A stretch of DNA of 64,000 nt. It comes from Petrimonas sp. Lineage in GTDB: Bacteria > Bacteroidota > Bacteroidia > Bacteroidales > Dysgonomonadaceae. The stretch is taken from NCBI GenBank assembly GCA_012839475.1, contig DUNG01000008.1, forward strand, positions 1-64,000, given 5' to 3'. Positions 5,608 through 40,404 of the stretch are shown piece after piece. The notes beneath the pieces were generated by a model that did not search any database, was not told the origin of the DNA, and saw nothing but the letters and a program-made list of their open reading frames with translations. Numbering within the stretch: position 1 is the first letter of the stretch; each line of letters begins with the position of its first letter. The position numbers and the translations under genes are program-made.

Positions 5608-5680
5608 AACGAACGTTATAATTATTACAAAAAGATCTCCATATACCCTATTATCAATAACCCTTTAATTTTTACGACCT

Positions 5681-6715: not shown

Positions 6716-6793
6716 GCCTTGAATATCAAAGGATAACAATTTGCCGACCTTACCCGTTACTACCGCACCACTTGCTATCCATAACCTACTGCC

Positions 6794-6841
6794 AAACCGA
6801 TGCTTATCGGGTGTAAAAGTGATAAGCATCGGTTTGTTTTC
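6794..6841 (+). terminator. Strong intrinsic terminator
   Basis: A perfect 15-bp stem (6794-6808 with 6821-6835, 12-nt loop) is followed by GTTTTC. It ends the rightward EEP transcription unit; the leftward gene at 6892-8061 converges on it. Confidence 0.85.
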
Positions 6842-6891
6842 TTTATTCTCTTATCCGTCAGTTAAAACTGGCGACAATAGACTGTAACGAT

Positions 6892-15210: not shown

Positions 15211-15383
15211 AAAAAGGGAAGAAACTGGAATAATATTAGAAAATAAATTTTTTACATCCCCGCTGATTTTTATCTATAATACTCAGCTCGGAGAGGGCAG
15301 GGAAGCATTGACGGTTCACGCAAGTGCACCGACTAGTTGATGGAAATTTCATGAACCCAAATAGAAAAAGGGAAACTTTTTGA

Positions 15384-15485
15384 TTCACTAATCGGGAGAT
15401 AACTCCCGGTTTTAATGAAATAGAATCCCTTAATTTATATCAACAGGGAATGTGCCTGTTCCGCCTGATACCGTGAGCAAAGATA
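15384..15485 (-). ncRNA. Candidate structured RNA, family B copy 1
   Basis: On the minus strand a perfect -7 element TATCTTTG (15478-15485) is followed by a hairpin AACAGG/CCTGTT, then GGATTC...GAATC enclosing CGGGAG-TTAT-CTCCCG. The part at 15384-15430 recurs with about 80% identity on the same strand at 21229-21274. No gene reads from this promoter before the stop of the convergent regulator gene, so a short untranslated transcript is the simplest reading. Confidence 0.4.
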
Positions 15486-15585: not shown

Positions 15586-16617
15586 TCAATTTGGTTCAAA
15601 ACTGGTTTCATAATTTAAGCATGCCTGTTTATATTTTTTGCTCATGTAATCAACGAGATGCTTAGGTTGAACAACGGTAACACCGTCGGAAAAGGCAAAA
15701 AGATCACGTTGAAGTTCGTGATTAATGACAACGTTTAGTTCAAATAGCACGCTACCATCCCCACGCCTTTCGACGATTCTTTGACTCTTGTGGATAGGCT
15801 TGGTTTCGATGTAGGGTGCGCTCTGTGGATTTGCAATAAATCTCACGATTTCAGGCTGTGAATTTAACCTTTTGGTCACTCCAACGATATCATCAAAAAA
15901 GGATTCCGGTTCAAAAAAGGTATTTTCAACGAAGGGTTCATCATCGGCAAGCTTAACCTTGGTGAACCTGTCCAGGGCAAGGTTCAACAAATCCAACCCA
16001 TGTTTTTTCACGCCAAACACAAACCACCTGTTACGGTATTCTTTTAACAGGTAAGGATAAAATATTATTTTGGAAACGTGTCTTGCCTTAAACGACTTGT
16101 AATTTATCTTGATGGTTTGCTTGTTAAGGATGGCCTGGTAGATAAAGTCGAGGTGTTCAAGACCTTTCAAGTCATCGTTCTTCTCGAAGTTAATGACAGC
16201 CGGGGATTTACGTTTCATTGCCGCGAGATGCGATTCCAGTTTGCTAACTACATCAGACATATCCGAAAAGTGCGTGAATTGCTTGAATTGACGCAGTACC
16301 TCAACCGCTTCAGACATTTTATTCAAGTCCTGTTCAGTCAATGGCAAGTTAGTAATGCTGTAATCGGGGTCATCGTACTTGTAATACTTGTTATCATACA
16401 CGACAATCGGAGCATTATAGCCAAGTTTTTCACTTCGCATAAGCTGAATATCCATTTGAATGGTTCTTTTGCTTATACCCTTACGGATACCTTCAAATTC
16501 GTACAAAGCATCAGAGCAAGCATCTATTAAATCATCTAACGTCCAACGCCTGTATGGATTTCTCAAGCATTTGTCGATGGTTTTATAGCGTATCAACGCG
16601 TTTTTATTAACAGGCAT
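15586..16617 (-). CDS. WYL-domain transcriptional regulator
   Basis: This 343-aa regulator reads from the ATG at 16617; a start three codons earlier is also possible. It has an N-terminal winged helix-turn-helix (about 5-75), a central WYL domain (about 150-230, with TIKINYKSF and RWFVFGVK) and a C-terminal WCX-like region. WYL proteins are ligand-responsive regulators, and relatives control BREX, CBASS and CRISPR loci as well as RNA- and DNA-repair genes. It is divergent from rtcB with a short shared promoter region, so it most likely controls rtcB, perhaps in response to RNA or DNA ends; control of the BREX island downstream is possible but less direct. Confidence 0.85.
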   Translation of the reverse strand: MPVNKNALIRYKTIDKCLRNPYRRWTLDDLIDACSDALYEFEGIRKGISKRTIQMDIQLMRSEKLGYNAPIVVYDNKYYKYDDPDYSITNLPLTEQDLNKMSEAVEVLRQFKQFTHFSDMSDVVSKLESHLAAMKRKSPAVINFEKNDDLKGLEHLDFIYQAILNKQTIKINYKSFKARHVSKIIFYPYLLKEYRNRWFVFGVKKHGLDLLNLALDRFTKVKLADDEPFVENTFFEPESFFDDIVGVTKRLNSQPEIVRFIANPQSAPYIETKPIHKSQRIVERRGDGSVLFELNVVINHELQRDLFAFSDGVTVVQPKHLVDYMSKKYKQACLNYETSFEPN

Positions 16618-16641
16618 GAAAATCATTTTTTAAATTCCATG

Positions 16642-16724: not shown

Positions 16725-17897
16725 ATGAAAAGAGTTATTTTATCAGAAAGAATTCCCATAAAGGTCTGGATGGATTCAATTGACGATAAGACGATGGAGC
16801 AAACGGTTAATCTCGCGAACCTTCCTTTCGCTTTCAAGCACGTGAGCTTGATGCCCGATGCCCACTCGGGATACGGGATGCCCATTGGTGGTGTATTAGC
16901 GACTGAAGGGGTGATTGTACCCAATGCCGTTGGTGTTGACATTGGCTGCGGAATGTGTGCGGTTAAATCTGACTTAATGGTGTCAGAGGTTTCAAGAAAA
17001 GAGATGTTGAATATCCTTTCTGAAATTAGAAATAAAATTCCCATTGGTTTTAATCATCACAAAGAAAAACAGGATGAAAGCCTGATGCCACAAGGATACG
17101 ACTTAAACAACTTGCATGTCATAAGCAGGCAGTACACGGCTGCATTAAAACAGATAGGAACGTTGGGTGGCGGAAATCATTTCATCGAGATTCAGAAAGA
17201 TAGTGAAGGCTTCCTTTGGTTAATGATTCATTCGGGTAGCAGGAACCTTGGGAAACAGGTGGCCGATTTTTACAACAAGAAGGCAGGGCAATTGAACGAG
17301 CTTTGGTATTCATCGGTTGACAAAAGCGTGGATTTGGCCTTTCTTCCATTCAGGACAAACGAAGCTCGTCAATACTATGATGAGATGAGGTATTGTGTTG
17401 ACTTTGCTCTTGCCAACAGGAAACTGATGATAGAAAGAGTGCAGGAATCATTTTATGACCATTTTCCAACGATAAAGTTCGGTGACGTCATAAACAAGGC
17501 ACACAATTACGCTGCCTGGGAAAACCACTTCGATAAGGATGTCGTCGTGCATCGCAAGGGTGCTACTTCTGCACGAGAGGGGGAGATTGGCATCATTCCC
17601 GGCTCGCAAGGAACAAACTCCTATATCGTTGAAGGTCTTGGGAACAAGGATAGTTTTAACAGTTGCTCACACGGTGCAGGACGCACGATGGGTAGAAAAG
17701 AAGCTGTTCGGAATTTGGATCTCGAAGAAGAAAAGAGAAAACTGGATGCTCTGGGTATTATTCATGCGGTAAGATCTAAAAGTGACTTGGAAGAGGCACC
17801 TTCTGCATACAAAGACATTGAAGAAGTAATGGCAAATCAGCAGGATTTGGTCAGAATCAAAGTGGAGCTTAGTCCGGTGGCGGTCATTAAGGGATAA
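16725..17897 (+). CDS. rtcB: RtcB-type RNA ligase
   Basis: This GTP-dependent RNA ligase joins 2',3'-cyclic phosphate or 3'-phosphate ends to 5'-OH ends, repairing broken tRNA and rRNA. It is 390 aa from the ATG at 16725; an upstream TTG in the same frame overlaps the -7 element and is rejected. Family motifs are present: PDAHSGYGMPIGG (44-56), GVDIGCGM (70-77, Mn-binding Asp72 and Cys75), GTLGGGNHFIE (145-155), HSGSRNLG (169-176), and HGAGR (316-320) with His316 as the guanylylated residue. No archease gene is adjacent. The divergent WYL regulator and the structured RNAs that follow suggest induced RNA repair. Confidence 0.95.
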   Translation: MKRVILSERIPIKVWMDSIDDKTMEQTVNLANLPFAFKHVSLMPDAHSGYGMPIGGVLATEGVIVPNAVGVDIGCGMCAVKSDLMVSEVSRKEMLNILSEIRNKIPIGFNHHKEKQDESLMPQGYDLNNLHVISRQYTAALKQIGTLGGGNHFIEIQKDSEGFLWLMIHSGSRNLGKQVADFYNKKAGQLNELWYSSVDKSVDLAFLPFRTNEARQYYDEMRYCVDFALANRKLMIERVQESFYDHFPTIKFGDVINKAHNYAAWENHFDKDVVVHRKGATSAREGEIGIIPGSQGTNSYIVEGLGNKDSFNSCSHGAGRTMGRKEAVRNLDLEEEKRKLDALGIIHAVRSKSDLEEAPSAYKDIEEVMANQQDLVRIKVELSPVAVIKG

Positions 17898-17910
17898 AAA
17901 GTATAAGTTT

Positions 17911-17976
17911 AAGCACCTGAAATGGCTGTTGGTTGATCCTTTTTCATTGAAAGAGAGTACGCGGTTTCGGGTGCTT
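17911..17976 (+). ncRNA. Family A hairpin element, copy 1
   Basis: This 66-nt element closes with a 12-bp stem (AAGCACCTGAAA with TTTCGGGTGCTT, one wobble) and holds a 7-bp inner stem (CTTTTTC/GAAAGAG). It is 61/66 identical to the copy at 18474 and about 54/66 to the inverted copy at 21014. It starts 14 nt after the rtcB stop, so it could be the 3' end of the rtcB mRNA; no promoter or U-run of its own is visible. Confidence 0.5.
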
Positions 17977-18177
17977 ACTGGCAATACAGAAAGTGAGCCA
18001 CAAGTAAATATATTTGACAGTTCTTATGATTTAGATTATCTACCTACGGTGGTTGTGCTTGATAAAGAAAGGACCATTTATTAGATGTAAAAGAGAATAT
18101 AATAGCTGATTTTGAATAAATTGATGCTTTATAAAAAATATACTGTTTGAAAATGGCAATATTCTATCAATTTTTGT

Positions 18178-18372
18178 TATCTTCGCAGAAAGTGGACACA
18201 CCGGATTCTGTATAGGCAGATTGCTCAGAGGGTGTTTGACCGGAAACATCGAGTTCTGTGGCTGCAAAAAGCAATTTGCCTGCTCTATGAAGTTATCAGG
18301 AAGATCAGAAAGGACGGCTGACGCACATAGTTGCTTATGAGGACTTGTCCGCCCTCCCTGATAACTTTTTTT
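18178..18372 (+). ncRNA. Candidate structured RNA, two hairpins and U-run
   Basis: A near-consensus -7 element TATCTTCG (18178-18185) precedes an untranslated stretch with two stems: GGCAGATTGC/GCAATTTGCC (18215-18224 with 18271-18280) and AAGTTATCAGG/CCTGATAACTT (18290-18300 with 18357-18367), the latter running into TTTTT (18368-18372). Its size, about 185 nt, is like 6S RNA, but the fold is not the single long interrupted hairpin of 6S. No coding frame of note. Confidence 0.45.
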
Positions 18373-18445
18373 GCATCACTTGATATGACTGTGGCTTTTA
18401 ACGGCAGACTTTGTTTGTCTACTGCGGTATTGAGTGATGCTTTTT
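18373..18445 (+). ncRNA. Candidate hairpin RNA with terminator
   Basis: GCATCACT (18373-18380) pairs with AGTGATGC (18433-18440); six further pairs, three of them wobbles, extend the stem inward. An inner hairpin AGAC/GTCT is enclosed, and TTTTT follows at 18441-18445. It abuts the previous U-run, so it may be a second terminator domain of the same transcript or a separate processed RNA. Confidence 0.4.
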
Positions 18446-18473
18446 AATACAAAATATAGCATCCATACAGCAT

Positions 18474-18552
18474 AAGCACCTGAAACGACTGTTAGTTGAT
18501 CCTTTTTCATTGAAATAGAGTATGCGGTTTCGGGTGCTTACTTTGTTTTTTT
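18474..18552 (+). ncRNA. Family A hairpin element, copy 2
   Basis: The element spans 18474-18539 (66 nt) with the same closing 12-bp stem and central hairpin as copy 1, followed by ACTTTG and a run of seven T (18546-18552), which makes it terminator-like. One inner pair of copy 1 is lost (T opposite T). Confidence 0.5.
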
Positions 18553-18565
18553 GTTCTTTCTGTAT

Positions 18566-18656
18566 TATCTTTGTCTTTATAAAGTGGAGATAAATTGTTT
18601 TGAGATTTTTTCTCATCGATTACCCCTGTATCGGGCTGGAACAATTTAAATCCACT
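18566..18656 (+). ncRNA. Candidate three-way-junction RNA with consensus promoter
   Basis: A perfect -7 element TATCTTTG (18566-18573) is followed at the expected distance by AGTGGA (18583-18588), which pairs with TCCACT (18651-18656); a GA/AA internal loop; then TAAATTGTT/AACAATTTA (18591-18599 with 18640-18648). The closed loop holds two hairpins, TGAGA/TCTCA (18601-18615) and CGAT/ATCG (18617-18633). No U-run follows. Confidence 0.5.
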
Positions 18657-18668
18657 ATTGAAAAAACA

Positions 18669-18720
18669 GTATCCAATCCAAAATTAGCGCAACTTCAGTA
18701 TTATTAGCGTTGGTGCGGAT
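18669..18720 (+). repeat. Spacer repeat C, copy 1
   Basis: A stretch of about 52 nt containing TCCAAAATT, AACTTCA and TTAGCGTTGGTG recurs at 19041-19093 with roughly 75% identity. Each copy lies just downstream of a three-way-junction element, so the pair suggests an ancient tandem duplication. Confidence 0.45.
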
Positions 18721-18798
18721 GCTGACCATACCATTTTTAATTTGTATTTGAGTTTTGTTGCAAGAAGCTATTCTTTTAGGAAGACTTGAAGTAGAAAT

Positions 18799-18865
18799 AA
18801 GTTTTGGGTTAATAGTATGAATGTCTCCAAATAGGGGGACTGTACTTAATTAACTCAAAACTTTT
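18799..18865 (+). ncRNA. Candidate hairpin RNA with 15-bp stem
   Basis: AAGTTTTGGGTTAAT (18799-18813) pairs with ATTAACTCAAAACTT (18849-18863) with a single G-U wobble; an inner hairpin GTCTCC/GGGGAC lies between, and TTTT follows the stem closure. No matching -7 element was found directly upstream. Confidence 0.4.
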
Positions 18866-18919
18866 GTCAGAGATGATATTTCTATTGTTTTTATATAATT
18901 TACTGTATATAAAAATATA

Positions 18920-18994
18920 AACTTCTTTGAGAGTGACAGCCCTGCTCTCATAAACGCCATCAGGGGTTACTCGAGTGATGGCGGAAGAAGTTTT
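18920..18994 (+). ncRNA. Candidate three-way-junction RNA with loop-loop match
   Basis: AACTTCTT (18920-18927) pairs with AAGAAGTT (18985-18992). Inside are TGAGAG/CTCTCA (18928-18933 with 18945-18950) and CGCCATCA/TGATGGCG (18955-18962 with 18976-18983), all perfect. The first loop contains GCCC and the second begins GGGG, so a kissing interaction is possible. This is the most regular fold in the array; it does not match the purine riboswitch core. Confidence 0.5.
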
Positions 18995-19040
18995 CTACCT
19001 GCTTTCTTTTATGTGACTTACATATTTTATTAGATGAAAC

Positions 19041-19093
19041 TGTTTCCAAATCCAAAATTGGAATAACTTCATTGTTTTTAGCGTTGGTGAGGA
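19041..19093 (+). repeat. Spacer repeat C, copy 2
   Basis: Second copy of the spacer repeat found at 18669-18720, again downstream of a three-way-junction element. Confidence 0.45.
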
Positions 19094-19157
19094 GAATGTT
19101 TTTCTCTGTTGCTCAAAATAGTATTCTCCCATAAAGATAGATTATGAATTTTTTTTG

Positions 19158-19242
19158 TACCTTTGAATTCATACAGAGATTAATCTTTTCAGTGCATTGC
19201 TCGTTGGAGAGCCACTTATGATTAGTTTAATCTCTGTTTTTT
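19158..19242 (+). ncRNA. Candidate small RNA with promoter and terminator
   Basis: A perfect -7 element TACCTTTG (19158-19165) precedes a compact unit: ACAGAGATTAA (19173-19183) pairs with TTAATCTCTGT (19227-19237) and runs into six T (19237-19242). Inside, AGTG/CACT and GCTC/GAGC stack with a CATT bulge (19191-19216). Promoter, fold and terminator together span only 85 nt, the clearest single sRNA gene in the array. Confidence 0.6.
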
Positions 19243-19258
19243 CTGAATTTTTTATTTG

Positions 19259-19389
19259 TATCTTGGCACTCTCAATACTCAGACCTCTGTTTTTTAGAGT
19301 TAGGACTATTGAGCTTCATTTCAGAGTTGTTTGTTCGGGTGTGGGTGGCCTTGCCATCTGACAGGTTTCCGGCAAGCAACTCTTTTTTT
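19259..19389 (+). ncRNA. Candidate small RNA, two hairpins and U-run
   Basis: A near-consensus -7 element TATCTTGG (19259-19266) precedes CTCAATA/TATTGAG (19271-19277 with 19307-19313), then AGAGTTGTTTG/CAAGCAACTCT (19323-19333 with 19373-19383, one wobble) enclosing GGTGGC/GCCATC (19344-19358) and followed by seven T (19383-19389). The outer stem sequence recurs at 19867-19929. Confidence 0.5.
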
Positions 19390-19705
19390 GGAACAGCATC
19401 AATCCGTTGACTCGAAAATCCATACTAACAAATTAAATACCAGCTACTTCAAAAAAAATTGTATTTTTTCTAGTGGATACTTTAATACATGATAAACAAT
19501 AAGTTCGCAAAACCATCCAATCCAGTATCAAATGAGTCATCAGGAGAAGCGGAATTACTTTTTATGACACAACGTAACTCAAGCGAAGGAACGATCGTCT
19601 GGAAAGTCGGGGATGGGCTTAAATGAGAGCTGGAGATACAGAATTTACTTGTATATGATTAACAGACCAGAAAGAACAAGGTACACCTACGAGGTTATGA
19701 AAAAA

Positions 19706-19767
19706 CAAGTCCGGTGGGTAACCTTAATTTACGACAAGATGACGTAAATCCCTCGACACCGGACTTG
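19706..19767 (+). repeat. Perfect 11-bp inverted repeat with inner hairpin
   Basis: CAAGTCCGGTG (19706-19716) pairs with CACCGGACTTG (19757-19767), and inside ATTTACG pairs with CGTAAAT (19727-19733 with 19743-19749). No U-run follows. It sits upstream of the kinase-domain ORF and could be part of its leader or another RNA of the array. The rest of 19390-19866 shows only short, unconvincing reading frames. Confidence 0.4.
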
Positions 19768-19866
19768 ATGGATGCGGAAACAACCTCTTACAAGAGCAAA
19801 GATAACGAGGATGGTTTTATAAACCAAGAGGCTATGCTAAACCATACAAGCATGAAGTAACAAATA

Positions 19867-19929
19867 TAGAGTTGCTTTATGGAACACTGCTGAATGACAA
19901 TGCCACTCGCACCCGAAAAAGCAACTCTA
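19867..19929 (+). repeat. Perfect 12-bp inverted repeat related to 19323-19383
   Basis: TAGAGTTGCTTT (19867-19878) pairs with AAAGCAACTCTA (19918-19929) over a 39-nt loop. The stem matches that of the RNA candidate at 19323-19383. It overlaps the first codons of the long frame at 19872, which argues that translation really starts further downstream. Confidence 0.4.
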
Positions 19930-20957
19930 TAAACACAAATACAGAGCTATCAGACGTTCCGATGGCAGGAGAAAAAACTCGCAGTCAACAAATGGATGCT
20001 CTAAATAGCTCTATGATGGAGCTCAAGGCAATAACTCCGCAAGCAAAGGCGGAGGTTTCTCCGTTGAGACCACAAAGTTACTACAAGGAGTCGAGAAATC
20101 CTATAAAAATTTTCCAAAACAAGGAGTGTAAGACGAGGATGGTTACCGGCTCCCCACAAGGAGACATCGCAAATGTGCAAAGAAAACTTGTACCCACTAA
20201 AGACGAACTTACGAAAGAAGGAAAAAAGCAAGCAAAGAATAATCGTATCAGATTTGTGGTGGCAGAAATAAACAGTAATTTTGTAAAAAGTAAAGAACAT
20301 GAGCAAAGAACTGAAATACTTGAACCAATTTCACAAGGAATCGACGGAGCGATGCATGAAAGAGATAGAGGGGTGGGCGAAAAACCCGGTGCCTTCCAAA
20401 GAGGCTGCGAGGCAAGCGTTCGAGATGCACAGAAAAATAAGGGAGGCCTATCCAAACGAGAGGTAGCGGATATCGCAGAAGCCTACTCGAAAGAGAGAGG
20501 CGCATGGGTTCCTTTGGCCAATCAAGCCCAATTAGGAGAGCCGTTCCCAAGCGGTATGGAAAACGAGGTTTACTACAACGAGTGCGACAGCGCAGTTTAC
20601 AAGGTAAACAACCTTAGCCTTAACGAAAGCAGCATCCTTTCGCTTCTTGAAAGAGTAAAGGATCATAATAGGCTTTTCCCAAACACGGCTTACGAACTCG
20701 TGGGCTTTTCAGGCTTCGGGAATGGCAGCGTGTACCCAGTTTTAAAGCAGGGCCATATAGCTTATGCCACCTTTGCTACATACGAGGAAATTGATTCCTA
20801 CATGTGTTCGCTTGACTTTGAACCAACGGGGAAAGACGCTGAATACACGAATGGCGAATACATCGTTTTCGACTTACACCCAAGGAACGTCCTAAAATCA
20901 GAAGAAGGCAATATTTACGTGATCGATGCGGTGGTAACCAAACGGTTTGAGAAATAA
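19872..20957 (+). CDS. Orphan polyvalent-type protein kinase domain protein
   Basis: This frame is open for 361 aa, but only the C-terminal part (about 200-361) looks conserved. It resembles the kinase domain found in polyvalent proteins of phages and conjugative elements: AVYKVNN holds the candidate ATP-binding Lys, FDLHPRNVLK the catalytic Asp and Asn, and YVIDAVV the metal-binding Asp. The first 200 residues are low in complexity, overlap a hairpin at 19867-19929 and cover a separate small frame at 20299-20466, so the true start is uncertain, perhaps near 20352. In mobile elements this domain is part of very large proteins; here it is alone, suggesting a relic or a domesticated kinase. Confidence 0.55.
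   Translation: MLYGTLLNDNATRTRKSNSINTNTELSDVPMAGEKTRSQQMDALNSSMMELKAITPQAKAEVSPLRPQSYYKESRNPIKIFQNKECKTRMVTGSPQGDIANVQRKLVPTKDELTKEGKKQAKNNRIRFVVAEINSNFVKSKEHEQRTEILEPISQGIDGAMHERDRGVGEKPGAFQRGCEASVRDAQKNKGGLSKREVADIAEAYSKERGAWVPLANQAQLGEPFPSGMENEVYYNECDSAVYKVNNLSLNESSILSLLERVKDHNRLFPNTAYELVGFSGFGNGSVYPVLKQGHIAYATFATYEEIDSYMCSLDFEPTGKDAEYTNGEYIVFDLHPRNVLKSEEGNIYVIDAVVTKRFEK
20299..20466 (+). CDS. Small 55-aa helical protein overlapping kinase frame
   Basis: An ATG at 20299 opens a 55-codon frame (+1 relative to the kinase frame) ending TAG at 20464-20466. Its product is well formed: charged, helical, rich in Lys, Glu and Ala (it begins MSKELKYLNQFHKE), whereas the overlapping kinase frame is irregular over the same bases. 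It ends just before the conserved part of the kinase begins, so the two may be translationally coupled, or a frameshift may separate parts of one ancestral protein. No family recognised. Confidence 0.45.
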   Translation: MSKELKYLNQFHKESTERCMKEIEGWAKNPVPSKEAARQAFEMHRKIREAYPNER

Positions 20958-21006
20958 TAAAAGGGTAGGAGGCAAGCCCTGACAGCCGTTTAGCGAGACG
21001 AGGAAT

Positions 21007-21093
21007 AAAAAAGAAGCACCTGAAACCGCCTACTCCCTTTCAGAGAAAGAGTATCAACAGACCGTCATTTCAAGTGCTTCTACCGCAAAGATA
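21007..21093 (-). ncRNA. Family A small RNA, copy 3, with promoter and terminator
   Basis: On the minus strand a perfect -7 element TATCTTTG (21086-21093) precedes the 66-nt element (21079 to 21014), which ends in C and six T (21012-21007). Relative to copies 1 and 2, paired bases have changed in ways that keep pairing: in the outer stem C-G to T-G and T-G to T-A, in the inner stem T-G to C-G and T-A to T-G. That supports selection on RNA structure. It lies between the kinase ORF and the defence island. Confidence 0.6.
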
Positions 21094-21228
21094 CTACAAA
21101 GTATAGACGATTTGAAAGAAAAAATTTTAAATCTTTCAAGTCAACCGAAAACTGTTATCGGTGATGTCGCTTTTGGTTTGGAAATAAATAAAAACGTATA
21201 TGCATAAACAGAAAAAAGCACCACTTGT

Positions 21229-21290
21229 TTCACTAATCGAGACAACTCCAAGTATTAATCAAACAGAATCCCTTTTTCGATAATTCTGGA
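21229..21290 (-). ncRNA. Candidate structured RNA, family B copy 2
   Basis: On the minus strand this matches the family B element at 15384-15430 (shared GGGATTCT, GGAGTT and GATTAGTGAA blocks), followed by GTGCTTTTTT, a U-rich end near 21215. The small hairpin of copy 1 is degraded here (GGAGTTGTCTC). It lies beyond the end of the leftward kinase/HExxH operon. The rest of the 398-bp gap 20958-21355 holds the family A copy and nothing else clear. Confidence 0.35.
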
Positions 21291-21355
21291 TTTTGGTTTT
21301 CATAATTTGGATTCCGCCGATTTCTCAACAGGCAGAACATTTTTTTAAAAAACAA

Positions 21356-22063
21356 TTAAGTTGAAAGGATCAGACGACTTAGAGTGTTAGTCTCACGAAG
21401 TAGTTTGTCCGGGACACAATCTTGAAGCGACAACAACCATTGACGAGGAGACGTGTAACTCTTTAAATCTCCAAAATACGGGAGAAGAAGCCACAAGCGA
21501 GGGTTTTCAAGGAAAGCGTGAAGCATGGCACGAGCCATACTCGAGAATAAGTCTCGATGGTATTCTTTCGAGTAAAGAGCAAGAGAGTGGTGATTTATGT
21601 ATTCCTCGAGAGGCAATGGACTTACCGGGACCTTACTTGTTGTCGTTTCAAAGTAATCTTCCACGTGGACTTTGTAGTGGGGAAAGCTTGGGCATATTGA
21701 ACACCACTGTGATTTCATGTGGTAGAGGACGAAATAAGAGGCAAGTTCACATATTGTTTCCTCGAGCCAGTAAATTCCCTTTTTCTCCCCGGTCATAGTC
21801 CCGTTAATCTGCCAATGGCAAAACTCGTGTGCGAACTGGTATGCGTATTGAGACCAGAGATCATTTGTCGCAGATAGAAATATCACGCATGTGCTCGATG
21901 AAACACGGCTACACATAGGGCCTTCCGCTCTTGGCTGAATAAAAATTATTTCATTCCTCGGGATTTCATTTTGAAGGATCTCGCTGGTTGCAAAGGAGAA
22001 GATGGAGATGACTACGTCTCCCCATTTGCAATTGAATGAATCTGGATTGAAGTTAAGTCTCAT
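21356..22063 (-). CDS. Putative zinc metallopeptidase-like protein (HEFCH)
   Basis: This 235-aa protein has HEFCH at 79-83, a classic HExxH zinc site, with Glu101/Glu102 about 19 residues later as a possible third ligand (gluzincin pattern). There is no signal peptide, so it would act in the cytoplasm. It is the last gene of the operon that begins with the VWA protein and starts 22 nt after the kinase gene. No exact family recognised. In a defence context such peptidases can be effectors activated by cleavage or phosphorylation, but that is inference. Confidence 0.6.
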   Translation of the reverse strand: MRLNFNPDSFNCKWGDVVISIFSFATSEILQNEIPRNEIIFIQPRAEGPMCSRVSSSTCVIFLSATNDLWSQYAYQFAHEFCHWQINGTMTGEKKGIYWLEETICELASYFVLYHMKSQWCSICPSFPHYKVHVEDYFETTTSKVPVSPLPLEEYINHHSLALYSKEYHRDLFSSMARAMLHAFLENPRLWLLLPYFGDLKSYTSPRQWLLSLQDCVPDKLLRETNTLSRLILST

Positions 22064-22085
22064 GATGATTATCTGAATTTTCCCC

Positions 22086-23789
22086 CTAAAACAACTTCGT
22101 TTTATCTACATTCAACTCGATAATATGTCCTCCCAGTTCAATATCATGCTTAAAGTATAGACGCTTTCTTCTTTCTAATTTTTCGCCATCAACATACACA
22201 TCTAATCCATTGAGCGGATAAATCCAGTTTTCGTTTTCCGTCAAAATCAATATAGCTTGTTTCCGGCTGATATGGTTGCCGGGGAATTCGATATCGTTAT
22301 CATATCCCGACCGTCCAATTGAAATAAAAAGCAAATTGTTGTTCCTGTATTCTTTTCCATCTACCGTAATTTGATACATCTTGTTCAGTGTAAGCGATTT
22401 TGAAATTGAATAATGGCAAAACATCAATTTGTCATTCAGTGTATTATGATTACCCAAAATAGAGTCACTGTTTAGAATGACCCATTTGTTGTATTCCGAA
22501 ATGACATTGTCTTCATTAAAAGGCAGTAAAAGCTTTACATAGTCTAAATCATCCAGATTGTTCAGCATGTAAAACAAGTCGTTATTGATTTTGAAGCAAA
22601 GTTCTCTCTGAAATATAGTCATTAATTTGTCACTTAGTTTTAACCCATCGGATAACCTATCTGATTTGAAATAACACTCTAAAAGCAAATTATAAGCTTC
22701 ACAATCTTCGGGATGTATCAGCAGGTATTCAGTGAGGTGCTTTATAGCTAATCCTGTTGACCCGGCATCAATGTATATCTGCCCCATTTCTTTATTGATA
22801 TTGATTGATGGTACTTTTTTCTTCAATGCCAAAAATATATCTTTTGCATTTTTGTAATCAGCAATGGAAACATAGTATCTGCCAAGAACTTCGAGAATGG
22901 ATGAATGATTCATATATTCGGGCTTTAGCATTTTTATAGATTGTAGAAGTGTATTGTATTTTTTGCGTTTTAGTAAGTTATTCAGTTTTTTTGCTTCATA
23001 TGATGCCGAGATGCTTTCCTCATCAATCTCAAAAGGGATGTTGCGGGTTTCAATTGCCTGAACAATCTCGCTCATGGTTTTAAAACGATACTCGGGATTG
23101 ACCGACAACATTTTCATTATCACTTCCTGTAACCACAATGGCAGATCTTTGATGTCCAAATCACCGGATATTATTTTGTCGGCCCTTTGGTCAGAAGTTA
23201 AATTTCCAAATATTTTTTTGTTTTGAATGAGTTCGATAAAAGTAATGCCCAACGCAAATATATCACGATGATATGCCGGGTGATGAACCGAGTTCAACAG
23301 TTTTTCAGGAGGCAGGTACTTGCTTGTAGCTATAGCAGAGTTTGCACATCCAAAATCACCAACTTTTACTTCGTTGTTTTCCCCCAGAAGCAAATTTTCA
23401 GGCTTAATGTCCCCGTGAATTATTCCTTTCTGATGAATGACCTGAAGCGCTTTTGCAATGGTTAGTACCGTATCGATGGCTTTATTTAAATCGAATTCTT
23501 TTCTATGGAAAGCATTTGCAAGACTTCCACCCACACAGTATTCCATTACAAAATAGAGATCATCTTCTTTTACAAAAGCGACATGATATTGGACAATATT
23601 CGGATGATTGAACTGACTGATTGTTCTTATTTCCTTCAGGATAAAATCTCTGTCTTTAAGCAAATTGTTACGTATCTTTTTAATGGCAACCTTCTTTCCC
23701 GACAATTCTTCTTCACCAACATAGACATTACCAAAACCTCCCGATCCGAGTTCCGATATGTTCTTATATCCGTCTAGTTTAATTTGCAT
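22086..23789 (-). CDS. Ser/Thr protein kinase with TPR and FHA domains
   Basis: This 567-aa kinase reads from the ATG at 23789, which has a GGAGG ribosome site 8 nt upstream; the frame is open nine codons further. The kinase domain (1-265) has the Gly loop GSGGFGNV (15-22), Lys37, HGDIKPEN (125-132, Gly in place of the usual Arg of HRD) and DFG (145-147). Helical TPR-like repeats (about 290-420) follow. An FHA domain (about 480-560, with GRSGYDNDI and NHISRKQA) binds phosphothreonine. Type 2 BREX uses a kinase, PglW; type 1 normally does not, so this kinase beside a type 1 locus is notable. Likely partners are the VWA, NTF2-like and HExxH proteins. Confidence 0.9.
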   Translation of the reverse strand: MQIKLDGYKNISELGSGGFGNVYVGEEELSGKKVAIKKIRNNLLKDRDFILKEIRTISQFNHPNIVQYHVAFVKEDDLYFVMEYCVGGSLANAFHRKEFDLNKAIDTVLTIAKALQVIHQKGIIHGDIKPENLLLGENNEVKVGDFGCANSAIATSKYLPPEKLLNSVHHPAYHRDIFALGITFIELIQNKKIFGNLTSDQRADKIISGDLDIKDLPLWLQEVIMKMLSVNPEYRFKTMSEIVQAIETRNIPFEIDEESISASYEAKKLNNLLKRKKYNTLLQSIKMLKPEYMNHSSILEVLGRYYVSIADYKNAKDIFLALKKKVPSININKEMGQIYIDAGSTGLAIKHLTEYLLIHPEDCEAYNLLLECYFKSDRLSDGLKLSDKLMTIFQRELCFKINNDLFYMLNNLDDLDYVKLLLPFNEDNVISEYNKWVILNSDSILGNHNTLNDKLMFCHYSISKSLTLNKMYQITVDGKEYRNNNLLFISIGRSGYDNDIEFPGNHISRKQAILILTENENWIYPLNGLDVYVDGEKLERRKRLYFKHDIELGGHIIELNVDKTKLF

Positions 23790-23857
23790 GAAAATACCTC
23801 CACTTATATAGTACAACTAACGATTATTACGTTAAATTTAAGTCGGCTATTGGTTCT

Positions 23858-24265
23858 TCACCTTGGCTTATAATCAAACCTCACAGCTCCTTCGGGGCTT
23901 GGGATACCGATCATGTTTGCTTTCGTGATTTTACCGTTTTTAGTTTCGATGATAATACTGCATTGGTTCTCTTTTTGTGTAAGCACGATACATCCCTTAT
24001 CGATTTCCGAATAACAATATTTGAAGTAGGCTATTTCGGCTCTTGGAATTGATGAAATGTTTTCCAAAATGGAATTGAACTTTCCACGCAGATAATTGAT
24101 GTAATTCCATTTGCCATGCATGGTATCAAAAACCCATTGCGAGTTATACTCGAAATCATCGTCCAAGATATCGTGTAGATAGCTTACATCAAGATTGTTC
24201 CATGCCTTAGCATATTCAATAAGCAATTGCGCTTCATTCATAGGTTTGCATTTTACATTACTCAT
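23858..24265 (-). CDS. NTF2-like (SnoaL-type) small protein
   Basis: This 135-aa protein resembles the NTF2-like fold: an N-terminal helix pair (AQLLIEYAKAWNNLD), a DDDFEYNSQ strand, and four C-terminal strands. Its ATG overlaps the VWA stop as ATGA, showing translational coupling. NTF2-like domains bind small ligands or act as scaffolds, and are linked to kinases in some eukaryotic and bacterial systems; here it probably assists the kinase or VWA protein. No catalytic residues can be assigned. Confidence 0.55.
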   Translation of the reverse strand: MSNVKCKPMNEAQLLIEYAKAWNNLDVSYLHDILDDDFEYNSQWVFDTMHGKWNYINYLRGKFNSILENISSIPRAEIAYFKYCYSEIDKGCIVLTQKENQCSIIIETKNGKITKANMIGIPSPEGAVRFDYKPR

Positions 24266-24906
24266 TCGTCATCCAGTTTATTCAGATCACTCATTAAGTT
24301 TTCTAAAATAGCCTTTTCATCTTTTTTGCCGGCAATTCTAAACAGGAGACTACTATCAGATACCCTTTCCATAGCTGTCGCAAACTGCTTTTTGGATGTT
24401 CTGGCCCTGTATTTTGCACCCATAACATCGGCATCAACAAAATTATCCAGCCCACTTCCCAGGAAGATGAAATTCCAACCTAGCAGCTCTTCATGCGACG
24501 AAATAATAGCCCTGATGGCTGTTCCTGAATAAAATTTTGACGCGTTTTCCTCTCCATCCGTGATTATTACTGTCATCACCTTGTTGGGTCTTTCTGCCTC
24601 CGGGATGAGTGCTATCTGCTTGTCTGTCTCATGGATTGCCTGCCCAACAGCATCGTAGAGTGCAGTGAAATTGTTTGGGTTGTAATCCTCGAGGGTTAAT
24701 GTACGCACTTCAGATGCGGGTTGGTTATTGATTACACGGTTTACCTGGTCGTTAAATTTGTAGAGCGAAACGTCAATCTTTCCATAATCCTCTCTCTTTT
24801 GTTTCTCTACAAAATTATTGAATCCACCGATCACGTCTCGTTCGCTACCTGCCATAGAGCCACTTTCATCAATCACGAAAATGATTTTCAAATAATTGTT
24901 TTCCAT
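24262..24906 (-). CDS. von Willebrand factor A (VWA) domain protein
   Basis: This 214-aa cytoplasmic protein is a single VWA domain, similar to TerY-type proteins. The metal-ion-dependent adhesion site is intact: DESGSM (Asp13, Ser15, Ser17), Thr81 in FTALYDAVG, and Asp117 in IITDGEE. Such proteins assemble multi-protein complexes and occur with kinases and phosphatases in TerY-P triads, although no phosphatase gene is seen here. It has its own promoter and heads the VWA, NTF2-like, kinase, HExxH operon. Confidence 0.88.
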   Translation of the reverse strand: MENNYLKIIFVIDESGSMAGSERDVIGGFNNFVEKQKREDYGKIDVSLYKFNDQVNRVINNQPASEVRTLTLEDYNPNNFTALYDAVGQAIHETDKQIALIPEAERPNKVMTVIITDGEENASKFYSGTAIRAIISSHEELLGWNFIFLGSGLDNFVDADVMGAKYRARTSKKQFATAMERVSDSSLLFRIAGKKDEKAILENLMSDLNKLDDE

Positions 24907-24937
24907 AACCTTGAGTTTTTAAAGATGAGTAATGGCA

Positions 24938-24945
24938 CAAAGTTA
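24938..24945 (-). promoter_or_regulatory. -7 element (TAacTTTG) of VWA-kinase operon
   Basis: CAAAGTTA on the plus strand reads TAACTTTG on the minus strand, a full match to the -7 consensus 32 nt before the VWA start. It implies the kinase module can be expressed separately from brxL. Confidence 0.6.
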
Positions 24946-25003
24946 TGCTGTAAAACAATCGGTTTTGGGTTTTGCAAGGCTTGCAAACTATTTTATCCCG
25001 GAT

Positions 25004-26152
25004 CTAAGGTCTGGTTTTTTGGTGTTCTGACTGAAAACTAACCAATTCACGATTTAAAGTTATTCTCTTGGGCTCACCTCTTTTACCCGTGATGTAGTAA
25101 TTTTTGGCCAGATCGTCGGTTATCACTTCGAGAAATGCCGAACGGATGCGGGAGCATTTTTCATTTACCGAGTTGTTTAGCGGATCGGTCATTGCCTTTA
25201 TACTTTCCATCACAGCGTCAATATTCTCACGCAGCGTGATGTTACGGTAAATCGACAGCAGTTCATCGTGATGATTGCCCAACTCCTTGAAGAGGATGCC
25301 TTCGGGATGATTGAGAAAAAGTAGGAACAAACTTTTGGGAAGGGGAGACATTACAACCTCTTTCATGCCATAGTCCTTGAGAAAAAGACGGAAATCATTG
25401 GTAATGAACAGCGAGCTTATCTTTTTTTTCGTTCCCTGTATTTCTTCTATTATGTCACCGAGCAACGACAACGCCCCGTGTTCCTTCAATAACTTGAGAC
25501 GCTCACGAATTTCGTCTGCAAGCTGGAAGGCTTCTGTTTCAAATGTTGCATCTGCATCTTTAACGGTTCTGAATAATACTGCATCTTCTTTACATGAAAA
25601 CACATCTGTTGTTGTCTCCTCCAAGATATTTCCATACATCTCGCTCATGCTGACGTCGCGGATATACTCTTTTTCATCAGGATCACCTATTCTGAACAAC
25701 ACCCGAGGGGGTTCAAAACGATCAAAACAGTCAGAAATTTTCAGGGAAATGTTTTCGAAAGAGTTCAAGGACGCATCTTTCTCGATTAGCGTGAAAACAG
25801 GAAGGGACCTTGAAAATGCATTATTGGACGAAAGCAATAAAGCTCCATTTATGACTTCAGAACCTTGTCTTTTGATGAGGATATTATAAACTTGCTGAAC
25901 TTCATCGATTACAGAAACAGGGTGAACGTAAGGACGGTTGTAATGTACAATATTCCAATATCTTTTGTCTTTTAGTAAAATAGGAAGATAGTAAAAATTC
26001 AAGCTTGATGAATCAAACAATCTCACCAGTTTCGAGTAATTCTTCCGGATAAATCGGTTTAATTCAGGTTGATATTCCGTTTCAACATAGAAAACAGAAT
26101 TCACATGGTCAAATAACGGTGTTTTGTGATTTTTGAAAATATGAAGTGACAT
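25004..26152 (-). CDS. Unrecognised 382-aa protein in the defence island
   Basis: This is a soluble protein with no signal peptide or membrane segment. The N-terminal half (1-190) is mixed alpha/beta; a helical stretch (about 205-250) follows; the C-terminal part (about 265-370, SPLPKSLFLLFLNHPEGI then a long helical run) resembles C-terminal regions I have seen in other Bacteroidota conserved hypothetical proteins, possibly winged-helix-like. It lies between the ASCH-like gene and the VWA gene and could belong to either module. No motif supports a specific activity. Confidence 0.7.
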   Translation of the reverse strand: MSLHIFKNHKTPLFDHVNSVFYVETEYQPELNRFIRKNYSKLVRLFDSSSLNFYYLPILLKDKRYWNIVHYNRPYVHPVSVIDEVQQVYNILIKRQGSEVINGALLLSSNNAFSRSLPVFTLIEKDASLNSFENISLKISDCFDRFEPPRVLFRIGDPDEKEYIRDVSMSEMYGNILEETTTDVFSCKEDAVLFRTVKDADATFETEAFQLADEIRERLKLLKEHGALSLLGDIIEEIQGTKKKISSLFITNDFRLFLKDYGMKEVVMSPLPKSLFLLFLNHPEGILFKELGNHHDELLSIYRNITLRENIDAVMESIKAMTDPLNNSVNEKCSRIRSAFLEVITDDLAKNYYITGKRGEPKRITLNRELVSFQSEHQKTRP

Positions 26153-26200
26153 ATTATAAAATAAAATAGCAATATTACTGAGCCGTCAAGAGTGTTGTAA

Positions 26201-26677
26201 TCATCTCTCTGATTTCAGATTTTTTTCAACAATATTACCCAGATGATAAACAATATTCCAAATGGCGCTGTTCCCATTTTCATCAGCTCTGAATCCATTC
26301 TCTTCATCCCAGAAAAAACGCACTGTTTTTCCATTCTTGTCTTTTGCAAGTTCAAAGCTAATGTCCGTGACTTCGACAACCGCGGTATCACGATCTTTTC
26401 CATATCCAACGGCAAGATTTAGAAATTTGTACTCAATGGGGAAAAAGGGATATACTCCATTGTTGTACATCATGATATCAAGTTCTTGATCAGGACTAAC
26501 CTTATCTTCATCAAAAATATATCCTTCCTCTCCGCCCTCTTTCCATGTCTCAATGTACTTTTTGAAAGTAGTGTCCTTGATTTCGCGATACTCCTCCTTT
26601 TTTGTTCCTGCGAGGATGGCGTCAAAATGAATTTGCTTAATCGGTAAATAGAGAGTGTTTTCTTTTGTTGGTTTCAT
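26201..26677 (-). CDS. ASCH-like (PUA-fold) protein
   Basis: The product is 158 aa from the ATG at 26677; an in-frame start seven codons earlier is possible. The N-terminus LPIKQIHFDAILAGTKKEEYR (about 11-31) matches the pattern of ASCH domains, in which a hydrophobic helix is followed by G-x-K-x-x-E-x-R. ASCH proteins bind or process RNA or modified nucleosides; some are ribonucleases or deacylases. It follows brxL by 162 nt in the same direction. The role in BREX is unknown. Confidence 0.55.
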   Translation of the reverse strand: MKPTKENTLYLPIKQIHFDAILAGTKKEEYREIKDTTFKKYIETWKEGGEEGYIFDEDKVSPDQELDIMMYNNGVYPFFPIEYKFLNLAVGYGKDRDTAVVEVTDISFELAKDKNGKTVRFFWDEENGFRADENGNSAIWNIVYHLGNIVEKNLKSER

Positions 26678-26838
26678 AATGTTGGGTGTAATAGTCAAAA
26701 GTGATGCTTTTTTACATAAGAAAATACACTAATGTTGAAAAATTATATTGTATTCAATGTTCTTGTTTCTTCAAAAGACACGTTGTATCCACCGTTATAT
26801 AAATGATCCAAATATGTTTCACATCATTCAGCAGCACG

Positions 26839-28887
26839 TTATTCCCCGAAAACTGACTTCTGCAACAACATCTGACTGTTCGCGTAGAAAGGAACATCTG
26901 TTTTGCCCAGAATGGCGGGAGGCAGTGTGGAAATTTCCATTAGGTTATCCATGGGTGCAAGGATGATTTTTGCTCCATTTTCAGAGAGCAGGCTGATCTT
27001 GTCTGCAAAATATAATGCTCTTTCAACTGCACCCCCTATTGAGATATTACCCAATATGGCCAATCCACCTTTCAGGTTTTTCTTGTAGATAGCTGATAAA
27101 ATAGCAACGAATACCGCGCTTCCTATTCCACCTCCCGAAGTAGTCCCCATCAAATTACTTATTTGTACATTCAGGTCAAAGTTAGATAGCGAGTGCTTTT
27201 CGTGCAGAATACTTTTCTCGTTAGCACGCAGGTAATTGTATGTGTTTTTGATATCTTCTTTTATTTCCTGCGAATTTGTGCCGGTAACACTTATTTTCCC
27301 GTTTCCTTTCAAGACTACAACTTCTATTTTTATCAGCGTGTTGTTTGATCCGTCACTTGTGGCGGAATAGCAAACTCCGGGAGATAGCGGATTCGCTTCA
27401 ATGAGTGCTGAGCCTTTTTCTTCGGGGAGTCCCACGAAAATTTCCTCCTGTGTTTCTTTATCGATATAGGAGAAATTGGTATCCCAAAACTCCATTCCAC
27501 CGATACGTTTCAGCTGTTCCTTAACCCTTCTTCTCATCTCCATGGCTAAAACCAAGTACTCCCGAACATCTTCTTTCGTGTAGTTACCATCAGGATGAAG
27601 CAGTTTTATCATACCTGAAACGATCTTTCTCACCGATTTGGAATCACGTTGTTTTAAGTGGCTTCCAAGCGTAAAGTATTTGTCGATAGCTTCGTAGTAG
27701 GTGGTTTTACGCTGAGACTTTAATATTTCTGAAAAGAAATCGGTGCTAAATCCGAAGTGTTTTGTGAAGTTCTGCGGACTGAATTTTGATATTTCCCATC
27801 CGGGCAGATACAGATTTATACGATCGAGGAATGCAGTATCGCTGTTTACTTCGTCTGATAGCGGACTAAACAGGTGCGATGTCTGCAATACTGTTTCTAC
27901 GGGTTGGTTGATGTTACCATTCAGAATCACGGAAGCTGATCCGGTGATTTCGCCACCTTTTGCCCGTGAAAATGACCCACTTTCCATGTAGTCTTTCATT
28001 AGTGGAATAGCATCACGGTCTTTGAATAGTTTATCGGTACTTTCGTCAAAACAAATGGCGTCCCATAGACCAACAGCACCCACCCTTCCGGTGGTGTTGT
28101 TTACGAACAACTGCGCAACTGTTCCTTGACCACCTGAAATCAGAATGGCGTAGGGCGTGATTTCCTTGTAAATGTAAGACTTTCCGGATGAGCGCGGTCC
28201 AAGCTCCACCATATTGAAATTGGCTTCCACCAGGGGGATTAAACGGCACAGCAAGAGATCCAGTATCCGATCATTAAAGCCTTCACTGCTTGGTTCATAC
28301 CCTGCACTTCTAAGCAATAAGGTTTTCCATTCATCCTTGGTGAACTCGGCTCTTTTTTCGATTACTCTCGTATTATCGAAATTTGAAAGCTGAATAGGTT
28401 TAATATCTTTCACAACAAATGGGAAAACTGTTGCTCCGATTGTAATCATCGGATCATACTCCATCTCAATTATTGCCCAAATACCTCCTAAAAGCAGCTT
28501 CTCGTGTGCCGTCACCAAATCATCACTTATATTCGCCTTTTTTATGTTGCTGTTGCTTATATTCGCCCAGTATCGGTCTCTTTGTGGATCAAGCTCAACC
28601 GATATTTTGTCAATGATCTTATACCGCCCTTTTTCACGTAGTTTGGACTGGATGAGCGAGCTCTCCTCGGGATTGACATAGTGATTGCGAAGGATGGTTT
28701 TCACGTTCTCCATACCTTCCTGCAACTTCTGTTCGTCTTCTGTGCTTGTGGTATTGGCCAAGAGAAATTCCAACACGAAAGCGGGTACGTTCGCTCCTCC
28801 TTTAATTATCCCCACAAGGTCTTTTTTTACTACAAACCCTCTGAAAAGGTCTAATGCTTTTTTATCTAAATCATCTAAAACTATCAT
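26839..28887 (-). CDS. brxL: BREX protein BrxL (Lon-like AAA+ ATPase)
   Basis: This 682-aa protein is the type 1 BREX Lon-like component, a DNA-stimulated AAA+ ring protein needed for defence. A Walker A-like motif GPRSSGKS lies near residue 229, followed by a Walker B candidate AICFDE. The C-terminal Lon-like domain (about 530-660) contains TSGGGIGSAVFVAIL, but at the positions of the Lon catalytic Ser and Lys I read Gly and Ala, so peptidase activity is doubtful. It is the last core BREX gene and starts 31 nt after pglZ. Confidence 0.92.
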   Translation of the reverse strand: MIVLDDLDKKALDLFRGFVVKKDLVGIIKGGANVPAFVLEFLLANTTSTEDEQKLQEGMENVKTILRNHYVNPEESSLIQSKLREKGRYKIIDKISVELDPQRDRYWANISNSNIKKANISDDLVTAHEKLLLGGIWAIIEMEYDPMITIGATVFPFVVKDIKPIQLSNFDNTRVIEKRAEFTKDEWKTLLLRSAGYEPSSEGFNDRILDLLLCRLIPLVEANFNMVELGPRSSGKSYIYKEITPYAILISGGQGTVAQLFVNNTTGRVGAVGLWDAICFDESTDKLFKDRDAIPLMKDYMESGSFSRAKGGEITGSASVILNGNINQPVETVLQTSHLFSPLSDEVNSDTAFLDRINLYLPGWEISKFSPQNFTKHFGFSTDFFSEILKSQRKTTYYEAIDKYFTLGSHLKQRDSKSVRKIVSGMIKLLHPDGNYTKEDVREYLVLAMEMRRRVKEQLKRIGGMEFWDTNFSYIDKETQEEIFVGLPEEKGSALIEANPLSPGVCYSATSDGSNNTLIKIEVVVLKGNGKISVTGTNSQEIKEDIKNTYNYLRANEKSILHEKHSLSNFDLNVQISNLMGTTSGGGIGSAVFVAILSAIYKKNLKGGLAILGNISIGGAVERALYFADKISLLSENGAKIILAPMDNLMEISTLPPAILGKTDVPFYANSQMLLQKSVFGE

Positions 28888-28918
28888 AACTTTTTTACTT
28901 ATTGGCTTTGGTTAAATA

Positions 28919-31159: not shown

Positions 31160-31215
31160 ATCTTGTTACGATATAGTCTGTCTTGTTTATTTTGCGTCAA
31201 GCATATACTGTCATA

Positions 31216-32849: not shown

Positions 32850-32868
32850 TTGCTTTTTTAATAGAATA

Positions 32869-32897: not shown

Positions 32898-32972
32898 AAG
32901 CAAGCATTAGTAAATTATAATATAATTCTTTTTATTCAGGTAAATGTCCACGCTTTAAAAAGTCGATTATTT

Positions 32973-33001: not shown

Positions 33002-33020
33002 AAAAATACAATCTCACCCT

Positions 33021-40381: not shown

Positions 40382-40404
40382 AGCAATTAAAAACTAATGT
40401 CTGA

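Follow-up and report, generated by a model that had tools for sequence, protein, structure and literature searches.

A chromosomal array of candidate antisense-type small RNA genes behind rtcB in Petrimonas, with two families that recur in polyvalent-protein genes of phages

We describe an array of at least 15 small hairpin RNA candidates beside the RNA-repair gene rtcB in a 64,000-nucleotide stretch of Petrimonas sp. DNA (assembly GCA_012839475.1, contig DUNG01000008.1, positions 1 to 64,000; hereafter the window). Our reading, to which we give a probability of roughly 0.58, is that the array consists of chromosomally clustered antisense-type genes for small structured RNAs, two families of which, F1 and F6, are shared with phages. 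Computation yielded the structures of the units, covariation in F1, the order of promoter box, hairpin and U-run, antisense placement in giant polyvalent-protein genes, synonymous-site constraint at F1, a tie between F1 and one protein domain (domain X) and polyvalent-gene debris adjacent to the array. The recurrence of F1 and F6 antisense in giant viral genes suggests a so far undescribed stratum of RNA genes. Genomes are given G numbers below (G000 is the window's own) and fetched loci or contigs L numbers.

A dense array of structured units behind rtcB

The interval 17,898–19,492 holds eight open reading frames (ORFs) of at least 40 amino acids, none with a Pfam match and the longest of 75 amino acids. 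Using a strand-specific detector of stems of at least 11 bp followed by a T-rich tail, we found seven stems on the plus strand and five on the minus strand of 17,898–19,450, whereas 30 dinucleotide shuffles averaged 0.80 and 0.47 (with highest counts of 3 and 4). A plus-strand fold scan in 90-nt windows gave z below −3 in 15 of 97 windows of the array and in 2 of 147 over the WYL regulator gene and rtcB. Twelve of the 16 window units scored had z of −3.0 or lower, the others being 18284–18369, 18667–18724, 19037–19101 and 21224–21282 (Table 1). The original prediction, made from the sequence without database searches, had described a dense series of structured units without a convincing gene at 17.9–19.4 kb, and these counts agree with it. 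The three units that it named as clearest, F4, F5 and the hairpin pair ending in F2-1, have z of −4.10, −4.29 and −3.01, and the shared architecture, promoter boxes and terminator-like ends that it noted were borne out as those of structured small-RNA candidates.

The array extends past 19.4 kb to about 21.3 kb on the minus strand, with units at 19704–19769, 19865–19931, 21009–21084 and probably about 21205–21282, and the two related F3 elements flank the locus, one at 15.4 kb and the other at 21.2 kb; altogether, 18 hairpins were recorded. TAnnTT[TC]G boxes occur four times on the plus strand of 17,891–19,450 (18009, 18178, 18566 and 19158) and once on the minus strand. Three of the plus-strand boxes, at 18178, 18566 and 19158, precede units; some units, such as those at 17907 and 18470, have no box immediately upstream. 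That the folds differ in sequence is true of some units; others form sequence families (17907/18370/18470 and 18667/19037), and the statement is therefore only partly right. F1 has four copies in the window (17907, 18370 and 18470 on the plus strand, 21008 on the minus strand) and F2, F3 and F6 two each. RNAalifold predicted 23 pairs from the four F1 copies, ten with changes on both sides, and all twelve closing pairs are kept; where random drift had been named as the alternative, the F1 stems show compensatory changes instead. Rfam 15 gave no match at gathering score in the array, the only match in the window being a tRNA-Val outside it, and a permissive threshold gave two sub-threshold array matches, the best with E of 1. 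Rfam likewise gave no match in L113, L199 and L196, and plasmid and phage collections queried with 17890–21360 gave none.

The units had also been proposed as substrates, inducers or decoys for the RtcB/WYL pair, a role that we now consider highly improbable. The array does lie directly behind rtcB, and Y RNAs, likewise structured RNAs beside rtcB, are encoded in rtcB operons of other bacteria, as described in parts of PMC7790460. However, the F1 model, run on 80 other rtcB neighbourhoods in sets of 43 and 37, found nothing above 18.5 bits, and F1, F4 and F6 all occur away from rtcB, F1 in polyvalent genes and in G547 and G249. A strong relative of the WYL regulator (E < 1e-40) was present in 12 of these 80 loci and a weak one in a thirteenth; the F4 model, run on 43 of them and 19 other loci, recovered its source L112 and one weak match, L057 (21.2 bits). 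Unlike Y RNA and YrlA, the array has no detected tRNA-like gene, no Rfam or Y-RNA match and no conservation with rtcB (rsr was not searched for), and is related to sequences in viral genes instead. F1-1, 9 nt 3′ of rtcB, may simply terminate the rtcB mRNA; nothing else that we found ties the array to RtcB.

F1, F6 and other antisense units in polyvalent-protein genes

F1 and its box lie antisense within one long reading frame in L163 and L195/L196, from IMG/VR viral contigs, and in L171, L173 and L174, from genomes of the window's order (L196 is the contig of L195, and L199 that of L163). These frames encode polyvalent modules: MuF_C, PBECR1, PBECR3, InPase and ART-PolyVal in L163; LPD38 and MuF_C in L195; LPD3, LPD38 and ART-PolyVal in L173; LPD3 in L171; and LPD23 in L174. 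At six viral loci found through the protein domain behind F1, the model placed F1 at the same site in every case, with at least 36.9 bits in five and 26.1 bits in L200; L197 and L198 have identical ORF coordinates and units. In a blastn search of a 12-locus database, the window copy F1-2 matched L201 8881–8954 at 73% over 77 columns (E 9e-4). Domain X follows 3′ of F1 in eight of eight genes (44–70% identity), five of which were found without using X, and only 3 of 28 pairs of upstream protein segments are alike. We conclude that F1 belongs to the module behind it. Domain X has no Pfam family, and its AlphaFold model, a weak one with a mean predicted local distance difference test (pLDDT) score of 66.7, gave no viral fold match with E ≤ 0.001.

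Three tests, of pairing, synonymous sites and peptide disorder, favour an RNA on the antisense strand. The 12-bp closing stem of F1 is paired in 132 of 132 cells over 11 members, with five pairs changed on both sides and a covariation score reached by none of 500 shuffles, although these members were found by structure model, DNA pattern or repeats, a bias toward paired stems that tells against us. In members found by protein alone, closing pairs number 12 of 12 (L197, the same as L198), 11 of 12 (L201) and 9 of 12 (L200). Over 14 members, the closing stems contain 149 Watson–Crick pairs, 12 G–U, 1 A–C and 6 other combinations; because a G–U here is an A–C on the opposite strand, the excess supports this RNA strand. 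In eight polyvalent genes, whose relatedness inflates the counts, same-residue codon pairs were identical in 77 of 77 cases across the three-codon −7 box (codon usage predicts 27.1), in 163 of 239 over the F1 hairpin (70.8 expected) and in 874 of 2,162 over the rest of domain X (790.1 expected, 1.11-fold). The best 30-codon window, at 2.41-fold, lay at F1, and no window beyond F1 exceeded 1.29. Restricted to the five viral loci, the counts were 26 of 26 for the box (9.3 expected), 51 of 83 for the hairpin (26.2) and 310 of 760 for the rest (276.9); L196 and L199 had originally come from a search with a DNA pattern covering part of F1 and the box. The peptide encoded by F1 (model residues 1–22) is predicted to be disordered, with pLDDT of about 33 from a five-sequence alignment.

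Outside polyvalent frames, F1 lies 3′ of a tRNA-Pro gene in G547 and inside a repeat-bordered array in G249; within the window's own genome it was found at the window locus only. At the G249 locus (L153, 7407–8920, between lepA and ribBA), six copies of a repeat of about 34 bp surround short segments, one with the F1 RNA, another seemingly with a further hairpin element and others with small ORFs, three of which gave no Pfam match. We take this repeat to resemble the XerCD dif site; it is absent from the window at up to three mismatches and from the viral contigs scanned. A match of model R3 (48 nt) in G520 was regarded as a chance terminator and left out of alignment A7, which also omits the weak and reverse-strand rows of A5.

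F6 is defined by a core, AAATCCRAAAT...TTAGCGTYGGTG, common to 18667, 19037 and antisense units of L163 and L196, with one start base different in 18667. The closing stems differ in sequence and align out of register between members, and one inner pair is A–U in both window copies and G–C in both viral copies. A scan of viral contigs with the core pattern found the L196 contig only. The single good relative of F4 lies between unrelated genes in G240, its core kept and its closing stem partly different; G165 and G118 gave weak F4 matches, and the exact F4 core pattern was absent from the viral contigs. Near the G240 relative (L112, 8160–8360 and 9199–9260), further long-stem hairpins are visible by eye, one deeply nested. 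F2, F3, F5, F7, F8 and F10 had no accepted relative outside the window in the comparisons made. Matches to the array arose in 18 genomes; beyond the window's own and G240, they had E of 2e-6 to 1e-3 and were taken as chance.

Antisense units in polyvalent genes are not confined to these families. We scanned polyvalent genes for a TAnnTT[TC]G box, a stem of at least 11 bp within 60 nt and a T-rich tail. Nine loci held 22 antisense units and 1 sense unit, against a summed synonymous-shuffle mean of 1.05; without L198, which repeats the units of L197, the figures were 20, 1 and 0.80. L199 alone held nine antisense and no sense units (shuffle mean 0.35, maximum 2), and the detector's background in the 80 rtcB loci was 38 units in 1.26 Mb on both strands. 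A search for MuF_C alone found it in 5 of 198 genomes, and the MuF_C frames contained six antisense and no sense units (shuffle mean 0.90); a further 880-residue frame in these genomes contained one sense unit. The pattern therefore reaches beyond F1, unevenly. Exact TTTG-N19-TAnnTTTG promoters occur five times antisense in L163 and never on the other strand; when the spacing may be 18–20 nt, a single promoter occurs on one strand in each of L171, L173 and L195, and none in L174. A count of Watson–Crick-only palindromes in polyvalent genes (8 compared with 3.8 in shuffles) was too thin for use. We also observed a perfect 15-bp antisense hairpin behind a TACCTTTG box at 4578–4617 of L171, a further unit of the polyvalent gene there (z −9.41).

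Most of the detected units of L199 lie near module junctions. Seven of the nine detected units start 1–7 residues from a domain end: MuF_C ends at residues 2383, 3747, 3935, 4131 and 4315 (two from Pfam, three from blastp with one of those) correspond to unit starts at 2381, 3746, 3933, 4129 and 4312, the PBECR3 end at 3180 to a unit at 3176 and the LPD13 end at 4642 to a unit at 4635. The PBECR1 end at 2982 lies near a weaker unit from the L163 promoter scan.

Units at domain ends might instead be junction hairpins for module exchange, in which a palindrome, perhaps with antisense transcription, would mark a site of cutting and joining and spread F1 with X. This is in keeping with the way in which F1 accompanies X while the upstream protein mostly differs, with the place of F1 in the repeat-bordered G249 array and with the mosaic make-up of polyvalent proteins described in parts of PMC5512222. 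A DNA-level site, however, needs no promoter box, terminator or one-strand excess of G–U over A–C, the stem ends have no fixed sequence between families, and the F6 closing stems are wholly different, and we regard module exchange as unlikely. We find it improbable that each RNA is an antitoxin restraining the adjacent effector module, with the array as a set of orphan RNA antidotes resembling orphan immunity clusters. The units adjoin predicted nuclease modules (PBECR1, PBECR3 and MuF_C), F1 is tied to a single domain, a bacteriophage exclusion (BREX) system lies only a few kb from the array, and orphan immunity genes are known in Bacteroidales from the portions of the literature consulted. 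Domain X, however, lacks a Pfam family and, within the limits of its weak model, a viral fold match, and one unit adjoins LPD13, a domain without known function.

Proposed action of the RNAs and evidence on both sides

We propose that a typical unit consists of a Bacteroidota-type TAnnTTTG promoter box, an RNA of about 60–90 nt whose paired ends build a long stem enclosing a core particular to the family, and a U-run by which the closing stem would become an intrinsic terminator. The units would be transcribed, and the RNAs would most likely act as stem-loop cis-antisense RNAs of the CopA or IS10 RNA-OUT type, pairing with polyvalent mRNA at module junctions and damping or processing it. Such RNA genes would have arisen near module junctions of polyvalent genes; mobile-element decay or transposition within a BREX type I/AbiE defence island would then have freed the window copies from their modules, leaving them as remnants or as forms that act in trans.

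CopA, RNAI and IS10 RNA-OUT are stem-loop cis-antisense RNAs of plasmids and transposons. The candidates resemble them as short, stable stem-loops with their own promoter and terminator opposite a mobile-element gene, and the sequence signals of this class (antisense placement, promoter and terminator) are present in the viral and genomic polyvalent genes. The known RNAs, however, act singly, one per gene, at a translation start or replication leader; here, many candidate units lie deep in a single giant ORF, close to module junctions, and members of two families occur in a chromosomal array as well. In type III toxin–antitoxin systems, a tandem-repeat RNA lies directly upstream of the toxin gene on the same strand, whereas the units described here run antisense to the module genes. 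Integron attC sites have conserved R-box ends, with gene cassettes between sites; by inspection, the stem ends differ between families here and no ORF above 75 amino acids lies between the units of 17.9–19.4 kb (an integrase was not searched for). Plain intrinsic terminators were rejected, as cores are conserved between elements (F1, F6 and F4) and a box stands just upstream in 10 of 14 F1 members.

Rickettsia palindromic elements are palindromes in coding frames. PARCELs are also coding palindromes (described in parts of PMC2996958). Both resemble the present elements as palindromic DNA inside coding frames that spreads by transfer; in the portions of the sources consulted, no antisense promoter or terminator is noted for them, whereas one RNA strand is favoured here and copies occur outside frames. 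Polyvalent proteins of phages and conjugative elements, described as mosaic in the consulted parts of Iyer et al. 2017 (PMC5512222), are encoded by the same kind of host genes, with MuF_C, PBECR, ART, InPase and LPD modules; in the main text of that paper the terms antisense, noncoding, linker, palindrom, promoter and terminator do not occur. Titles and abstract openings in the open-licence literature held no report of RtcB with small-RNA arrays, of antisense RNAs to polyvalent-protein genes or of nested antisense RNA genes in phages.

Several observations weigh against our reading. F1 is rare: it was found in 2 of 295 genomes of the order, the window's own and G249, and, by model R3 (built from five members), in 5 of the 150 genomes from the family of G249, a count that takes in G249 itself and the doubtful G520. 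F1-like DNA patterns in viral contigs were mostly not F1, the model scoring above 40 bits in 1 of 8 and 2 of 21 contigs matched, and a stricter pattern had no match there. A tie to viral genes exists for F1 and F6 but for none of F2, F3, F4, F5, F7, F8 and F10. A box just upstream is missing from three window copies of F1 (out of four) and from the G547 copy, the fold of F6-2 is no better than that of shuffles, and MuF_C had no match in the window's own genome or in 14 control genomes. Antisense units are sparse in some polyvalent genes, with one in the 6,276-residue frame of L200. Within L199, the units at 2056 (F1) and 5111 were left without a matched domain end, and of the six MuF_C stretches that Pfam reports for the second part, four were located and two not.

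Some of these points would also suit a reading in which the array is dead debris, the remains of at least one polyvalent gene in a decaying mobile element with hairpins that lie idle in the host and seem conserved merely because palindromes and terminators are. We judge this somewhat unlikely. Polyvalent-segment fragments and a Kinase-PolyVal piece do adjoin the array (the fragment at 20983–21204 has 45% identity over 66 residues to L171 and 49% over 61 residues to L163 by tblastn in an eight-locus database), three F1 copies have no box and F6-2 has no good stem. However, units are packed closely over 17.9–19.4 kb, six-frame segments of this interval match eight polyvalent loci only at F1 (E < 1e-3), the twelve closing pairs survive in all four F1 copies, and the F1 copies of G249 and G547 lie outside any intact polyvalent frame.

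If our preferred reading of an antisense RNA-gene cluster is true, polyvalent effector genes, a large class of phage genes, would contain nested antisense RNA genes that are invisible to protein-centred annotation. Their signature, an antisense TAnnTTTG box, a long stem, a U-run and synonymous constraint near module junctions, could be searched for across all phages, ideas on how polyvalent proteins are regulated and exchange modules would become testable, and the finding would help to account for noncoding arrays in Bacteroidota chromosomes. A broader and much more speculative proposal, which we think doubtful, is that Bacteroidales phages carry a hidden RNA-gene layer, in which antisense RNA genes at module junctions travel with their modules, and that bacteria gather free copies near defence genes, acting in trans against the mRNAs or effectors of incoming elements. 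The array would then be an RNA counterpart of orphan immunity clusters; like the orphan immunity genes of Bacteroidales, it groups small units close to defence genes, and these units have relatives in parts of mobile effector genes, with the difference that the units here are putative RNA genes.

Features of the locus and neighbouring genes

Table 1 Units of the array and adjacent genes, in window positions (z, fold score; R1, F1 model)
Feature	Position	Strand	Evidence
F3a hairpin unit behind TATCTTTG box, sequence relative of F3b	15360..15480	-	repeat pair D7, fold; z −3.79 for 15370–15440 folded as plus strand
WYL/WCX regulator, divergent from rtcB	15586..16626	-	Pfam WYL, WCX
rtcB	16725..17897	+	Pfam RtcB 3.6e-114; stop codon end 9 nt 5′ of F1-1
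F1-1, directly 3′ of rtcB, no promoter box just upstream	17907..17982	+	R1 87.2 bits; z −4.62
−7 box TATCTTCG, precedes next three hairpins	18178..18185	+	box scan
Two hairpins (18215–18280, 18289–18368)	18215..18369	+	stems; z of 18284–18369 only −1.71
F1-2, core near L201 viral unit	18370..18445	+	R1 79.1 bits; z −4.78
F1-3, 93% identical to F1-1	18470..18545	+	repeat and model; z −3.66
−7 box TATCTTTG and hairpin unit F5	18566..18660	+	box scan; z −4.29
F6-1, core common with L163 and L196 viral-contig units	18667..18724	+	z −2.73
Hairpin unit, 16-bp stem	18798..18868	+	z −4.49 for 18764–18870
F7, closing stem around two inner hairpins	18918..18997	+	z −3.96
F6-2, core retained, weak closing stem	19037..19101	+	z −0.83
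−7 box TACCTTTG and unit F4	19158..19240	+	relative in G240, closing stem partly different
Two hairpins, second (19318–19392) is F2-1	19256..19392	+	z −3.01
−7 box TATCTTTG (from 19804) and hairpin unit F10 (19704–19769)	19704..19804	-	z −4.01
F2-2, 73% inverted-repeat match to F2-1	19848..19932	-	z −4.91 for 19848–19935
Kinase-PolyVal domain, C-terminal in open frame from 19872	20463..20936	+	Pfam 1.1e-27, frame residues 198–355
Polyvalent-gene segment fragment (start of domain X), F1-bearing in viral contigs	20983..21204	+	tblastn
F1-4, own −7 box TATCTTTG (21093–21086), antisense to polyvalent fragment	21008..21093	-	R1 85.7 bits; z −4.60
F3b, probable unit, F3a relative	21205..21282	-	repeat pair D7, fold; z −0.35 for 21224–21282

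Beyond the array, a BREX type I island occupies 26839–41779, with an AbiEi/AbiEii pair inside. PADLOC matched five of the six genes brxA, brxB, brxC, pglX, pglZ and brxL, consistent with BREX type I; brxC (36773–40381) was assigned from its size and place alone, without a scan. Minus-strand genes between the array and BREX (21356–26698) encode a Ser/Thr kinase with an FHA domain, a VWA protein and four proteins without a Pfam match.

In a relative, G021 (L113), genes for WYL, a Band_7 protein and RtcB form a locus (genes 5504–6274 and 6287–7459). Its leader (5250–5420) contains a T-arm-like GGTTCGAATC, which may mark a YrlA-like RNA; ARAGORN and Rfam had no match. The closest named relatives of the window's RtcB are Bacteroidales metagenome-assembled genomes. 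The window's genome also has a second rtcB (G000:C18:7994-9163, L013), whose surroundings (L117) were covered by the F1 model search alone and which is 69% identical to the window copy.

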